DNA from: Fluviicola sp. | GTDB taxonomy: Bacteria > Bacteroidota > Bacteroidia > Flavobacteriales_D > Crocinitomicaceae | Assembly: GCA_017983675.1 (NCBI GenBank) | Contig: JAGOAZ010000003.1 | Location: 160,719 to 224,718 of the forward strand | Reading direction: 5' to 3' | Length of the DNA stretch: 64,000 nucleotides | Part shown: piece by piece, positions 15,238-53,002 of the stretch | How the letters are laid out: each line of letters begins with the position of its first letter | Numbering within the stretch: position 1 is the first letter of the stretch | The notes under the pieces: model-generated | Databases searched by the model: none | Seen by the model: only the letters and a program-made list of their open reading frames with translations | Told to the model about the DNA's origin: nothing | Made by a program: the position numbers and the translations under genes

Positions 15238-15311
15238 GCCGGTGTAGCTCAGTTGGCTAGAGCAGCTGATTTGTAATCAGCAGGTCGGGGGTTCGAGTCC
15301 CTCCACCGGCT
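15238..15311 (+). tRNA. tRNA-Thr (anticodon TGT)
   Basis: Acceptor strands GCCGGTG and CACCGGC pair fully and the discriminator is T. The anticodon arm GCTGA-TTTGTAA-TCAGC gives anticodon TGT, and the T arm is GGGGG TTCGAGT CCCTC. CCA is not encoded. It is the first of four tRNAs before tuf. Confidence 0.95.
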
Positions 15312-15318
15312 CAACATT

Positions 15319-15400
15319 GGGAGTGTCGCATAGTGGCTATTGCAGCAGACTGTAAATCTGTCACCTCACGGTATCGTTGGTTCGAGTCCATCCACTCCCA
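15319..15400 (+). tRNA. tRNA-Tyr (anticodon GTA)
   Basis: Acceptor strands GGGAGTG and CACTCCC pair fully and the discriminator is A. The anticodon loop CTGTAAA gives GTA. The 82-nt length reflects a long variable arm (class II tRNA), as expected for bacterial tRNA-Tyr. It lies 7 nt after tRNA-Thr. Confidence 0.95.
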
Positions 15401-15421
15401 CACATTGAAAAAAAATTAAAA

Positions 15422-15494
15422 GCGGGAGTAGCTCAGTTGGTAGAGCGTCAGCCTTCCAAGCTGAGGGTCGCGAGTTCGAGTCTCGTCTCCCGCT
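15422..15494 (+). tRNA. tRNA-Gly (anticodon TCC)
   Basis: Acceptor strands GCGGGAG and CTCCCGC pair fully and the discriminator is T. The anticodon loop CTTCCAA gives TCC. It is the third tRNA of the cluster. Confidence 0.95.
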
Positions 15495-15514
15495 CTTATT
15501 TGATTTAACTGAAT

Positions 15515-15586
15515 GCCGGTGTAGCTCAGGGGTAGAGTACTTCCTTGGTAAGGAAGGGGTCACGAGTTCAAATCTCGTCATTGGCT
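15515..15586 (+). tRNA. tRNA-Thr (anticodon GGT)
   Basis: Acceptor strands GCCGGTG and CATTGGC pair with two G-T wobbles and the discriminator is T. The anticodon loop TTGGTAA gives GGT. It is the last tRNA before tuf. Confidence 0.93.
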
Positions 15587-15602
15587 CGAAAAAAAAAAGA
15601 CA

Positions 15603-15625
15603 TTCACTCATGCTAAATGGGTGAA
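15603..15625 (+). promoter_or_regulatory. hairpin between the tRNA cluster and tuf
   Basis: TTCACTCAT pairs with ATGGGTGAA (9 bp, one wobble) around the loop GCTAA and is followed by ATTTTG. It could be a weak terminator or attenuator that sets the ratio of tRNA to tuf mRNA, or a processing signal. Confidence 0.45.
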
Positions 15626-15677
15626 ATTTTGTATTAGTAAGAAAAAGGTTTATTAACTACGTAACAAATAAAAACAA

Positions 15678-16865
15678 ATGGCTAAGGAAAATTTTAATCG
15701 TTCTAAACCACACGTTAACATTGGAACAATTGGTCACGTTGACCACGGTAAAACTACATTGACAGCTGCTATCTCTAGTGTATTGGCTTCAAAAGGTTTG
15801 GCTGCTGTTCGCGATTTCTCGTCTATTGACAACGCTCCAGAGGAAAAAGAGCGTGGTATCACAATTAATACTTCGCACATTGAGTACGAAACTACTAACC
15901 GTCACTACGCACACGTTGACTGTCCAGGTCACGCGGATTACGTAAAGAACATGGTTACGGGTGCTGCTCAAATGGACGGAGCTATCTTAGTTGTTGCTGC
16001 AACAGATGGTCCAATGCCACAAACGCGTGAGCACATCTTATTAGGTCGCCAAGTAGGTGTTCCTCGTATGGTTGTTTTCATGAACAAAGTAGACATGGTT
16101 GACGACGCTGAGTTGTTAGAGCTTGTTGAAATGGAAATTCGTGAATTATTATCGTTCTACGACTATGATGGTGACAATGCACCAGTTATTCAAGGTTCAG
16201 CATTAGGTGCTTTGAACGGAGAAGCTGAGTGGGTTGCTAAAATCGATGAGTTGATGGATGCAGTTGATACTTACATTGAATTACCTCCACGTGATGTTGA
16301 TAAAAACTTCTTGATGCCAGTAGAGGATGTATTTACGATTACAGGTCGTGGTACAGTTGCTACAGGTCGTATTGAGACAGGAGTAATCAACTCAGGTGAG
16401 CCAGTTGAGATCTTAGGAATGGGTGAAGAGAAATTAACTTCAACTGTTACAGGAGTAGAGATGTTCCGTAAAATCTTAGATCGTGGTGAAGCAGGAGATA
16501 ACGTAGGTTTATTATTACGTGGTATTGAGAAAACTCAAATCAAACGTGGTATGGTTATCTGTAAACCAGGTTCAGCGAAACCTCATGCAGATTTCAAAGC
16601 TGAGATCTATGTATTGAAAAAAGAAGAAGGTGGACGTCACACTCCATTCCATAACAAATACCGTCCTCAATTTTACTTCCGTACAACGGATGTAACTGGT
16701 GAGATTTTCTTAACAGACGGACGTGAAATGGTAATGCCAGGTGATAACGTTACAATTACTGTAAAATTAATCGTTCCTGTAGTAATGGACAAAGGTTTAC
16801 GTTTCGCTATCCGCGAAGGTGGACGTACTGTTGGTGCTGGTCAGGTTACTGAATTAATCGGTTAA
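15678..16865 (+). CDS. tuf: translation elongation factor Tu
   Basis: This GTPase delivers aminoacyl-tRNA to the ribosome. The P-loop GHVDHGKT is at residues 19-26, the switch I RGITIN near 58, DCPGHADYV near 80 and NKVD near 135; domains 2 and 3 are complete, ending [15 protein letters not shown]. The 395-aa length is standard. It follows four tRNA genes in the order Thr-Tyr-Gly-Thr, the same order as before tufB in Escherichia coli, and precedes tRNA-Trp and secE. Gene dosage cannot be judged from this window. Confidence 0.98.
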
Positions 16866-16884
16866 TCCCGAAAACATACAAATT

Positions 16885-16910
16885 AAAAGGGGAGTTTTGC
16901 TCCCCTTTTT
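16885..16910 (+). terminator. intrinsic terminator of tuf
   Basis: AAAAGGGGAG and CTCCCCTTTT form a perfect 10-bp stem around the loop TTTTG, ending in a T run. It lies only 4 nt before the next tRNA, so part of the transcription may read through. Confidence 0.88.
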
Positions 16911-16914
16911 ACAC

Positions 16915-16987
16915 ACGGGTGTAGCTCAGCTGGTAGAGTAGTGGTTTCCAAAACCATTGGTCGTGGGTTCGATCCCTACCGCCCGTG
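16915..16987 (+). tRNA. tRNA-Trp (anticodon CCA)
   Basis: Acceptor strands ACGGGTG and CGCCCGT pair (one T-G wobble) and the discriminator is G, usual for Trp. The anticodon loop TTCCAAA gives CCA. The tRNA-Trp then secE order is common in bacteria. Confidence 0.95.
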
Positions 16988-50247: not shown

Positions 50248-50922
50248 ATGGCAAAATTGGTGGTATACGAAGATGATTTTTGTTTTGTTGTCAACAAACC
50301 AAACAATGTTGTCGTTCATCATTCCAAATACGCGGGTCAGTTAGACGAATTGTCTTTGGTTGAATTGTTGCGTTTGGAAGGATATGAGACACCTATTCCC
50401 GTTCATCGTTTGGATCGAAAAACTTCAGGGCTTATTCTTTTTGTGAAAGATGCTACGGATGCTCGTAAATTCCAGCAATTATTCGATGATCAACTGATTC
50501 AGAAAGAATACCGAGCGCTATTACGCGGACATTTACCTGTAGTTGGAATAATTGATACACCGGTTAAAAACGAGCGCGGAAATCACAAAGAAGCCTTGAC
50601 TGAGTTTCGCTGTCTCGAGCATTTTATCCGCGATTACAGTATTCCGCCCTACGAACAACAGCGGTATAGCATGGTTGCATTTGTTCCAAAGACAGGGCGT
50701 ATGCATCAATTGCGTATTCATGCAAACAAAATAGCTCATCCTATTATAAATGATCCAAAATATGGTAATCGCCACCACAACCATTATTTTCAAGAAGTGT
50801 TGGGTATTCCTTTTTTGTTTCTACATGCGCAAAAGCTCACGTTCAAACATCCGTTTACAGGTGAGTTTCTAGCAGTAGAAGCGCCCTTACCTGATTTCTG
50901 GCAGGACTTTCTGAATAAATAA
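50248..50922 (+). CDS. RluA-family pseudouridine synthase
   Basis: The 224-aa protein isomerises a uridine in rRNA or tRNA to pseudouridine. The catalytic Asp is D56 in PVHRLDRKTSGL. Further motifs are VNKPNNVVVH, KEYRALLRGH, TGRMHQLRIH and NDPKYGNR. It lacks an S4 domain and its size suggests TruC (tRNA U65) or a similar small RluA member; the target base cannot be fixed from sequence. Confidence 0.88.
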   Translation: MAKLVVYEDDFCFVVNKPNNVVVHHSKYAGQLDELSLVELLRLEGYETPIPVHRLDRKTSGLILFVKDATDARKFQQLFDDQLIQKEYRALLRGHLPVVGIIDTPVKNERGNHKEALTEFRCLEHFIRDYSIPPYEQQRYSMVAFVPKTGRMHQLRIHANKIAHPIINDPKYGNRHHNHYFQEVLGIPFLFLHAQKLTFKHPFTGEFLAVEAPLPDFWQDFLNK

Positions 50923-50985: not shown

Positions 50986-51025
50986 ATTTTTCCACATTTT
51001 TACATTTGTTACCACTTTTTACCAC
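50986..51025 (-). promoter_or_regulatory. array of four 10-bp phased repeats, minus orientation (possible MraZ operator)
   Basis: Read on the minus strand the DNA is four consecutive decamers: GTGGTAAAAA, GTGGTAACAA, ATGTAAAAAT and GTGGAAAAAT. A GTG or ATG starts every 10 bp. Known MraZ operators are tandem decamers with GTG[T/G] or TGGG cores. The array mirrors a second one at 51121-51150. Confidence 0.55.
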
Positions 51026-51071
51026 TCAGTTTATTTTTAGCTATTTTCAATAAAATCAATGGTTTTCAAAA

Positions 51072-51079
51072 TATTTTTG
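51072..51079 (+). promoter_or_regulatory. possible -7 element of the mraZ/dcw transcript
   Basis: TATTTTTG matches TAnnTTTG and lies between the two decamer arrays, 100 nt before mraZ. No -33 TTG is visible, so the start site is uncertain. Confidence 0.3.
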
Positions 51080-51120
51080 TAACCTTTGTGGTGTTAATAG
51101 CGTATGAAGTTATTAACAAA

Positions 51121-51150
51121 GTGTAAAACGGTGGTAAAAAGTGGGTTATT
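51121..51150 (+). promoter_or_regulatory. array of three 10-bp phased repeats before mraZ (possible MraZ operator)
   Basis: Three consecutive decamers, GTGTAAAACG, GTGGTAAAAA and GTGGGTTATT, end 29 nt before the mraZ ATG. With the preceding AAA the first and third read AAAGTG(T/G), as in described MraZ boxes. A 14-bp block here (51131-51144) is the exact reverse complement of 51012-51025. Confidence 0.65.
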
Positions 51151-51179
51151 TCCCCTAATTTTACCCATTATAAATAGCT

Positions 51180-51641
51180 ATGGCTGGACTTGTAGGAGAA
51201 TTTGAGGTAAGACTGGACGGAAAAGGAAGATTCCTTTTTCCTGCTAGCTTGCGCAAGCAACTTTCTCCAGAAGCTCAGGAGCAATTCATGTTAAATAAAG
51301 GTTTTGAAGAGTGTTTGACCTTATACCCAATGAATGAATGGGATAAGTTAGCAGCAACCTTGTCAAAATTGAATTTATTTAAACCAAAAAACAGAATGTT
51401 CTACCGTTTGTTCCATCAAGGTGCAAAACAGGTTGCGTTAGACAATGCAGGTAGAGTATTGATTCCTGTCATGCACATGGAACGTGTTGGTTTAGACAAA
51501 GAAGTGATGTTAATCGCTTACAACGACAGAATTGAGATCTGGGACAAGTCCAAGTATTTCCAACTTATTGATGGGAACATGGCTGATTTCGCTGATTTGG
51601 CGGATGAAGTAATGGGTGACTTGGGGAATGACGACGAATAA
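51180..51641 (+). CDS. mraZ: transcriptional regulator MraZ
   Basis: The 153-aa protein carries two SpoVT/AbrB-like MraZ domains. The first starts GEFEVRLDGKGRFLFPASLRKQL (in parts) and the second HQGAKQVALDNAGRVLIPVMHM. MraZ forms a ring and represses its own dcw operon by binding tandem repeats upstream of mraZ; phased repeats are indeed present. It is the first gene of the division/cell-wall cluster and overlaps rsmH by 14 bp. Confidence 0.95.
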   Translation: MAGLVGEFEVRLDGKGRFLFPASLRKQLSPEAQEQFMLNKGFEECLTLYPMNEWDKLAATLSKLNLFKPKNRMFYRLFHQGAKQVALDNAGRVLIPVMHMERVGLDKEVMLIAYNDRIEIWDKSKYFQLIDGNMADFADLADEVMGDLGNDDE

Positions 51642-52557
51642 CGATTTTACATATCATGTGCCTGTCATGTTGCAGGAGTGTATCGATGGATTAGTGATTA
51701 ATCCAGATGGTATTTATGTTGATGTCACTTTTGGTGGTGGCGGACATTCCAAAGCTATATTTGAGCAACTTTCTCCGAAAGGTCAATTAATTGTTTTTGA
51801 TCAAGATCCAGATGCACGCAATAATGCATGGGACGCTCCAAATTTCCATTTTGTCGCTGCAAACTTCGCATTTTTAAAAAATCATTTACGTGTATTAGGT
51901 TTTCCTTTAGTGGATGGAATTTTAGCAGACTTAGGTGTTTCGTCTCATCAGTTTGATGATGCGAAAAGAGGTTTTTCGATTCGTGCAAATGAACAATTAG
52001 ACATGCGCATGAATCAATCAGGTGATGTTACAGCTCAAAATATTGTCGCTACTTATAACGAAGAAGAATTAGCCCGCATTTTTAGAGCATATGGTGAGTT
52101 AGATCATCCGTATAAAACAGCTGTTGAATTAGTAAAAGCACGTAATAAGTCTAAAATTAAAACAACAGGTGATTTAATGGAAGCGTTAGCTGCCGTTGCG
52201 CCTAAATTCAAAGATCATAAGTTTTTCGCTCAAGTTTTTCAGGCTTTACGTATTGAAGTAAATCAAGAAATGCAGGTATTGGAAAAATTCTTAAATCAAA
52301 CAGCTGAGGTGATGAAACCAGATGCGCGTTTGGTGGTGATGTCGTATCATTCATTGGAAGATCGTTTGGTGAAAAACATGATGAAACGTGGCAATTTGGA
52401 CGGAACCATTGAAAAAGATTTTTTTGGAAATGTATTGAAGCCATTTGAAGAAGTATATAGAAAGCCAATCGCTCCGTCTGAAGCGGAAATTCAAATAAAT
52501 ACGCGCGCTAGAAGTGCTAAACTTAGAATTGCGAAAAGAGTTGCAGATGCAAAATGA
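51628..52557 (+). CDS. rsmH: 16S rRNA (cytosine-1402-N4)-methyltransferase RsmH
   Basis: RsmH (MraW) methylates C1402 in the ribosomal P site. The SAM-binding motif VDVTFGGGGHSKAI is near residue 32, followed by DLGVSSHQFDDAKRGFS, the insertion domain, and the C-terminal SYHSLEDRLVK. I chose the ATG at 51628 (309 aa); a GTG 12 bp upstream is possible. It overlaps mraZ by 14 bp and ftsL by 11 bp, implying coupled translation. Confidence 0.94.
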   Translation: MTTNNDFTYHVPVMLQECIDGLVINPDGIYVDVTFGGGGHSKAIFEQLSPKGQLIVFDQDPDARNNAWDAPNFHFVAANFAFLKNHLRVLGFPLVDGILADLGVSSHQFDDAKRGFSIRANEQLDMRMNQSGDVTAQNIVATYNEEELARIFRAYGELDHPYKTAVELVKARNKSKIKTTGDLMEALAAVAPKFKDHKFFAQVFQALRIEVNQEMQVLEKFLNQTAEVMKPDARLVVMSYHSLEDRLVKNMMKRGNLDGTIEKDFFGNVLKPFEEVYRKPIAPSEAEIQINTRARSAKLRIAKRVADAK

Positions 52558-53002
52558 GTTGATTGATAGAGAGGGAATGGGCAATCCGATGGATGCTGTG
52601 AGAGGTGGGAAGGTCACGAAAACGACAACTGCTTCAAAACCGCGTGCACCAAAATCGACTACGTTGAAAAAAGGAAAACGTCAAAGTTTGTTTGTGCAAA
52701 TACTCAATGGAGACATATTAAAACGCGACTTTGTCCTCAATAATTTGACCTTTATTTTTTTCTTGTTGCTTTTATTGATGTTAATGGTTGCCAAAGGATA
52801 CTATGGTAAACAATTGCAAAAAGACATCAATGATATGCAAACTGAAGTGGATGCAGAAACGGCGGAATATGTTGAGAAAAAAGCACAATTAGAAGAAGCA
52901 ACTGCACGCTATAGATTGGTGAAGAAATTAGAAAAACACGGATTAAAAGAAACGGTTAATCCAGCAATAGTCATTCGTATTAAAAAAGAGAAAGATGAGT
53001 AA
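52547..53002 (+). CDS. ftsL: FtsL-like cell division protein
   Basis: The 151-aa bitopic protein has a basic cytoplasmic region of about 60 residues, one membrane helix (FVLNNLTFIFFLLLLLMLMV) and a periplasmic coiled coil with QLQKDINDMQTEVDAETAEYV. Sequence identity to classical FtsL is minimal. The call rests on topology, size and position between rsmH and ftsI, as in the FtsL-like family of Bacteroidota. In the divisome FtsL activates FtsWI. The start is taken at 52547; an in-frame ATG 27 bp on is an alternative. Confidence 0.8.
   Translation: MQNELIDREGMGNPMDAVRGGKVTKTTTASKPRAPKSTTLKKGKRQSLFVQILNGDILKRDFVLNNLTFIFFLLLLLMLMVAKGYYGKQLQKDINDMQTEVDAETAEYVEKKAQLEEATARYRLVKKLEKHGLKETVNPAIVIRIKKEKDE

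Follow-up and report, generated by a model that had tools for sequence, protein, structure and literature searches.

Two facing arrays of 10-bp boxes upstream of mraZ are probably the halves of a single split MraZ operator that closes into a DNA loop. The arrays lie in the window, a stretch of 64,000 nucleotides from a Fluviicola genome. The half-sites, their conservation in relatives, the register of the proximal half with a -7 box, the helical spacing between the halves and a trade-off in box number were all observed in the sequences compared. This arrangement suggests that one MraZ ring could hold both facing sets of boxes, looping the DNA to control division genes.

Facing boxes upstream of mraZ

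Read directly, the minus strand from 51025 to 50986 is GTGGTAAAAA GTGGTAACAA ATGTAAAAAT GTGGAAAAAT, and the plus strand from 51121 to 51150 is GTGTAAAACG GTGGTAAAAA GTGGGTTATT. The 14-mer GTGGTAAAAAGTGG is common to 51012-51025 on the minus strand and 51131-51144 on the plus strand, with 105 bp between two arms that are 100% complementary. Decamer arrays on both strands, including the shared 14-bp reverse-complement block, are thus present exactly as an earlier sequence-only reading had described them. On one strand and directly 5' of mraZ, boxes with a GTG core recur every 10 bp, two of the marks of an MraZ operator. That reading had inferred MraZ binding at the repeats and named the adjoining gene mraZ; the boxes match the site (AAAGTGKN3)3 as it is given in PMC5282649, with binding itself a prediction, and the gene scores well above the profile cut-off for MraZ (Table 1).

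Table 1. Features of the mraZ upstream region and adjoining genes, in window coordinates
Feature	Position	Strand	Evidence
RluA-type pseudouridine synthase gene, co-directional, 5' of the arrays	50248..50922	+	
Outer minus array, including ATGTAAAAAT and GTGGAAAAAT; mostly not conserved as MraZ boxes	50986..51011	-	
Second copy of TTWTNMACA (TTTTCCACA), overlapping the fourth decamer at the minus array's outer edge	50988..50996	+	
Predicted minus half-operator: core pair of MraZ boxes, GTGGTAAAAAGTGG, 105 bp from the plus pair that it faces	51012..51025	-	
Inter-array motif TGTAACC, at a fixed distance from the plus array	51078..51084	+	
TTWTNMACA element (TTATTAACA), abutting the plus array, DnaA-box-like	51110..51118	+	90/90 family records
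Plus array as first described; its first decamer, GTGTAAAACG, is a weak outer box	51121..51150	+	
Predicted plus half-operator, core MraZ box pair GTGGTAAAAAGTGG	51131..51144	+	GTGG in both registers, 90/90 family records
Predicted -7 box TAATTTTA, Bacteroidota TAnnTTTG type	51156..51163	+	
mraZ, first dcw-cluster gene	51180..51641	+	TIGR00242 124.5 bits, cut-off 98.35; PF02381 over cut-off
rsmH (mraW), next dcw gene	51616..52557	+	TIGR00006 313.9 bits, cut-off 154.3

The pattern GTGGn6GTGG occurs three times in the window, against 0.65 in shuffles, and 16 times in the whole genome, where the same pattern read backwards, as a control, occurs 31 times. Among the 16 genomic copies only the two upstream of mraZ carry TAAAAA between the boxes, and in this form the box pair is therefore specific to the mraZ promoter.

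Elsewhere in the cluster, the GTG start listed for rsmH may not be the true start, and no NCBIfam model matched the small gene at 52514-53002, which lies between rsmH and a penicillin-binding protein gene, in the position of FtsL. The MraZ protein of the window matches 9 of the 80 named loci listed at 93-95%, and eight of these are labelled Fluviicola or Flavobacteriales. A complete chromosome titled Glaciecola amylolytica (CP034120.1, our L010) has a Fluviicola-type mraZ region, with 93% protein identity; its title looks wrong, and the titles of several metagenome bins are similarly doubtful.

Two boxes per side are conserved

We oriented the upstream regions of mraZ genes and removed short and identical ones, leaving 266 records: 90 from the window's family (f1, Fluviicola/Crocinitomicaceae), 101 from other families of the order, 33 from the class and 42 from the phylum. 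The window's genus is represented in the comparison set by 14 genomes, its own included. Besides identical copies, the family loci left out were those with less than 250 bp upstream (L014, L048, L067 and L071); the plus pair is present in three of the four, and L071 is too short to show it. The class and phylum genomes are a selection, and the order genomes outside the family are all but 4 of the 105 that matched.

GTGG stands in both registers of both pairs in all 90 distinct family records. Of the remaining registers, the third on the minus side, an ATG decamer in the window, is GTG in 4 of 90 records, and the outermost, which overlaps a TTWTNMACA element, reads GTGG in 23 of 90. Each array has two strong boxes throughout the family, and a third, weak box, the outer plus decamer, reads GTGT in 25 of 90 records, the window included. 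The minus-side run consists of two boxes in 148 of 153 facing records. The conserved unit is two boxes per side. The four and three decamers of the sequence-only reading are present as repeats in the window, but across the family only the 2+2 structure is conserved, and 4+3 was rejected as the functional unit on that ground.

With one mismatch allowed, the plus pair was found in 191/191 order, 33/33 class and 39/42 phylum records. Facing pairs of the form CCACn6CCAC ... GTGGn6GTGG, sought without mismatch in the last 400 bp, were found in 90/90 records of f1, 35/37 of f3, 19/37 of f9 and 6/7 of f2, f6, f10 and f11 together. They were found in 0/20 records of f4, f5, f7, f8 and f13, in 1/33 of the class and in 3/42 of the phylum, and dinucleotide shuffles gave 0.0 in each group. 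With one plus-pair mismatch allowed the count for f2, f6, f10 and f11 became 7/7; f9 within 135 bp gave 18/37. A pattern scan limited to gaps of 75-105 bp matched 169 of 399 order genomes, and its backward control 8 genomes by row count. The sequence-only reading had named the absence of a conserved 10-bp period in relatives as grounds for giving up its proposal, and 10-bp box pairs are conserved there. It had also called the facing arrangement unusual, which holds against the published accounts of MraZ operators cited here but not within the window's family, in which it is the norm.

In f13 a single inverted CCACC lies 114-116 bp 5' of the plus pair in 6/6 records (L230-L233, L331 and L332). 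In f32, a distant lineage within the phylum, 10 of 18 records (L256, L262, L267, L271, L280, L345, L347, L350, L351 and L352) have inverted pairs of MraZ boxes 115-214 bp 5' of the plus array, perhaps of independent origin. One family genome (G495) carries two different facing-array loci, on contigs 1 and 65, and is either a mixed bin or has a second copy.

An arrangement limited to one order-level group plus a distant lineage is what might be expected if the minus array were a decoy, derived from a duplicated or inverted promoter and kept by descent only. The surrounding spacer has diverged, however, while both GTGG pairs were kept in 90/90 and 35/37 records, and of the explanations weighed here we give this one the least credence.

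The plus pair is in register with a predicted promoter box

Bacteroidota promoters are described in PMC7366714 as having a -7 box TAnnTTTG and a TTTG near -33, although in Flavobacterium johnsoniae the same account found no -33 part. A sigma-70 scan of the window was of little use for Bacteroidota. In 89/90 f1 records TAnnTTTR begins 25-26 bp past the opening G of the plus pair, and it follows the plus pair in 37/37 records of f3 (at 23-26), 26/37 of f9 and 6/6 of f13, against a background of 0.00-0.02 per scanned window (0.01-0.02 in f1 and f3). From the position of this box, transcription is predicted to start near 51168-51170, and the plus pair would overlay the -33 region of the mraZ/dcw promoter. 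The fixed register between plus pair and -7 box is consistent with an autoregulatory promoter operator. A candidate promoter in the center of the region, at TAACCTTTG (51080-51088), was rejected: although it is -7-like in the window, TGAAAC takes its place in many relatives, and we treat it simply as a motif.

Bidirectional control, in which the minus array would govern a divergent gene or a leftward transcript, had been raised by the sequence-only reading. The largest upstream frame lies on the minus strand in 55 of 73 named family loci, the window included (plus in 8, unclear in 10), which favors such control. In the window itself, however, there is no divergent gene at the minus array, the adjoining RluA-type gene being co-directional, and a -7 box occupies the mirror position of the minus pair in only 2/90 f1 and 1/35 f3 records. 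Nor are the neighbors related: 63 upstream frames fall into 31 groups, the largest of which has 21 members and looks like an EamA-type transporter, and the RluA-type gene of the window has no homologue among the other 62 frames compared. Because the array stays with mraZ while the neighboring gene changes, the minus array belongs to mraZ. We regard bidirectional control as very unlikely, and this part of the earlier proposal is not supported.

The inverted repeat might instead act as an RNA hairpin in a transcript arriving from upstream, as an attenuator or terminator. The RNA of the window folds better than shuffles (z -2.9), and in f9 the arm spacers are more alike within a genome (0.82) than when re-paired (0.64). 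Against this, the arms do not co-vary in f1 (0.822 versus 0.819, n=90) or f3 (0.648 versus 0.665, n=35), and GTGG is kept while the pairing spacers are not. Furthermore, both arms precede the conserved -7 box, and no terminator-like site and no Rfam match was found at the arrays. A hairpin is a highly improbable explanation of the repeat. Elsewhere in the window, Rfam models mark five plus-strand tRNA genes at 15238-16987, four of them clustered at 15238-15586.

A second element accompanies the plus pair

Relative to the plus pair, TTWTNMACA occurs at -20 to -22 (-31 to -32 in records with additional boxes) in 90/90 f1 and 37/37 f3 records. It also stands by the plus pair in 34/37 records of f9 (four at -11, one at -41), 6/6 of f13, 13/14 of f4, f5, f7 and f8 together and 13/14 of c17, against a background of about 0.00-0.02 per scanned window (0.006 in f1). 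Near the minus pair it is present in 61/90 family records. The sixth base is C in 37/37 f3 and 6/6 f13 records and A in 90/90 f1 records; in the window's family the fifth base varies, and there an inverted MraZ box was rejected as the identity of the element.

The consensus of the DnaA box is TTWTNCACA. A DnaA box looked an attractive identity for TTWTNMACA, but neither tandem searches nor the regions upstream of dnaA supported it or showed clustering at an origin or in the dnaA promoter. Same-strand tandem pairs of TTATNCACA, with A at place three only, numbered 0 in the window's own genome and 0 in 20 genomes of f3 and f13, and no consistent TTWTNMACA sites stood in the 25 regions 5' of dnaA that were readable, of which two were short (L424 was unreadable). 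In the open-licence literature searched we found no paper on a DnaA box with mraZ or in Bacteroidetes.

The only tandem of TTATNAACA in the window's genome (same strand, gap up to 25) lies before a HU gene, at 12818-12846 of contig 4 (L344:1501-1529). We collected 24 close HU genes from 28 order genomes; four genomes with only a distant HU match were left unread, and the best matches in L378 and L381 had no readable start and were omitted. Two TTWTNMACA elements exactly 20 bp apart precede the HU gene in 18 of the 22 readable upstream regions, from five families of the order; of the others, three have a single element on that strand and one has none.

Between the arrays, 86/90 family records have [TC]GNAAC[CTA]; in 80 it stands 51-53 bp 5' of the plus pair, regardless of how far apart the arrays lie. 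The motif has the form TG(T/A)AAC(C/A/T)TTT, and its distance to the minus pair varies.

Spacing between the halves is quantized

We measured the distance D between the inner end of the minus pair and the first base of the plus pair, or of the 3'-most one where there are several. D is 106 in the window and, in f1, 95-96 (8 records) or 103-111 (82 records). In f3 it takes the values 92-95 (19 records), 104-106 (8) and 115-116 (8) with nothing between, and in f9 the values 65, 83-84, 106-107, 117-119 and 127-128, with 152 and 159 beyond the limit; the small families f2, f10, f11 and f6 have 81, 94, 93 and 105, respectively. Overall, D clusters at 81-84, 92-96, 103-111, 115-119 and 127-128 (about 83, 94, 105, 115, 118 and 128). 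Even a single genus, g43, has both 94-95 (five records) and 104-105 (two); the alignment gaps that separate these records are equal in length though differently placed, and gap placement is uncertain in such A+T-rich DNA.

The best period is 10.9-11.4 bp (Rayleigh p about 1e-8), where the units of this phase test, as of the chance tests, are records or genera that share descent when related and are not independent events. For the 25 genera outside f1, R was 0.67 at 10.5 bp (p=3.6e-6) and 0.75 at 11 bp, peaking near 11.4, whereas the control distance between plus pair and ATG, taken in these genera, was not periodic (R=0.11, p=0.78). With one unit per family and spacing class (n=20), p was 4e-5 at 11 bp and 8e-4 at 10.5. 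The first periodicity test excluded the D values 152 (L225) and 159 (L214); once they were restored, R at 11 bp went from 0.72 to 0.70. The data include the value 65 (g42). Family f13, which lay outside the first test set, has its single inverted box at 114-116. In f32 the phase test varies with the period chosen (p=0.004 at 10.75, 0.07 at 11 and 0.32 at 10.5), with agreement only near 10.75. Within f1 the main cluster, 103-111, covers most of one turn, so that phase is not tight within the family.

A shift by one box does not explain this spacing because the steps are of about 11, not 10, bp. As D varies, TTWTNMACA and the TGNAAC motif keep their places relative to the plus pair, so the plus register is constant. 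The halves are thus spaced by whole turns, as the operators of a repression loop are, a likeness weakened by the 103-111 spread in the window's family; two predicted operators for one protein near one promoter, another mark of such a loop, are likewise present as far as sequence can tell.

Box number trades off with the facing pair

We counted in-register plus-strand box runs in order genera outside f1, without correction for kinship. At least three plus boxes were present in 21 of 22 genera lacking a facing pair and in 8 of 20 with one (Fisher 1.3e-4); counting full GTGG boxes only, the figures were 20 of 22 and 5 of 20 (2e-5). Families f4, f5 and f8 have four tandem boxes in 13/13 records and no facing pair within 135 bp, and three plus boxes stand in each of the two f3 records that lack a facing pair. 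Several outgroups from the phylum have two boxes and no facing pair. On the simplest reading of these counts, MraZ would want about four boxes, in tandem or split.

Quantized spacing and the box-number trade-off lend quantitative support to the suggestion of the sequence-only reading that the facing arrays allow loop formation, although the loop itself remains a prediction. The main alternative is that both arrays are MraZ operators acting separately and without a loop, the plus pair blocking the promoter and the minus pair raising the local MraZ concentration or blocking read-through. Boxes conserved on both sides would fit separate action; the 10-bp box period alone would hold registers in 10-bp steps, and 8 of the 20 facing genera keep at least three tandem boxes. 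Independent sites need no phase, however, yet the spacing is quantized by about 11 rather than 10 bp, with an aperiodic plus-to-ATG control, and box number trades off with the facing pair. We consider separate action unlikely.

A probable split operator among known MraZ systems

MraZ is one of the most widespread bacterial regulators, and its fold has been solved (structures 1n0e, 9qlr, 9qlg and 9sx6). The Mollicutes MraZ operator reportedly goes back to a 2016 study by Fisunov, and E. coli Pmra is said, in work by Eraso in 2014, to have repeated boxes and to mediate repression of its own operon. The lac, gal and ara systems of E. coli have paired operators about 9-12 turns apart and depend on helical phase.

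The Mollicutes operator is given as (AAAGTGKN3)3 (PMC5282649, PMC8475190), and MraZ is described as binding a related repeat as a single octamer (PMC5282649). The window's boxes AAAGTGT and AAAGTGG resemble its AAAGTGK unit, and both systems have 10-bp direct repeats with a GTG core beside mraZ at a single genomic locus. Mollicutes, however, have one tandem array of three boxes, whereas here two pairs, separated by about ten turns, occupy opposite strands. Boxes that recur with a 10-bp period before mraZ are also shared with E. coli Pmra and Burkholderia cenocepacia. The account of the latter in PMC7761207 places four repeats downstream of the -10 box and invokes a toroidal octamer; in contrast to those four direct repeats, the proximal pair here is upstream of the -7 box and the inverted pair far upstream. 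With the lac, gal and ara loops the facing arrays would share paired operators, a similar turn count and dependence on helical phase. Those loops are formed by dimeric or tetrameric regulators, whereas here the protein is ring-forming, the half-boxes are in tandem and the loop is a prediction. In the open-licence literature searched, outside which subscription journals largely lie, we found no description of facing MraZ arrays or of MraZ sites in Bacteroidota.

From this arrangement we infer that MraZ binds both halves and loops the DNA, that it does so as a single ring instead of two, and that the effect is repression, not activation. A ring on the two boxes of the plus half, over the -33 region, would compete there with RNA polymerase. 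The two boxes of the minus half, on the opposite strand about 105 bp upstream, would lie on the same face of the helix, and a ring that in relatives would sit on three or four tandem boxes would here take two from each half. Closing a loop of about ten helical turns would then shut off the dcw operon or sharply tune it. According to PMC8475190, the cluster that contains mraZ is repressed by MraZ in E. coli and in Mycoplasma genitalium. MraZ may nevertheless have an activating role here because the boxes lie upstream of the -7 box, not downstream of the -10 box as in Burkholderia.

More tentatively, and as something possible rather than probable, the parts may fit together further: one ring would need about four boxes, the operator would be split 2+2, and a second factor binding TTWTNMACA would stand in register with it, tying the division cluster to HU. 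If this is true, the second factor, stacked on the MraZ complex, would tie dcw expression to that of the main nucleoid protein.

In Mycoplasma genitalium, complementation is described as having succeeded in cis only (PMC8475190). For a ring-forming protein with no more than three or four boxes to sit on, a naturally split and phased operator would offer a direct test: if one ring holds two half-sites, MraZ would be a DNA-looping regulator. Bacteroidota would gain a defined dcw promoter, with a -7 box, operator halves and an extra element common to the HU gene.
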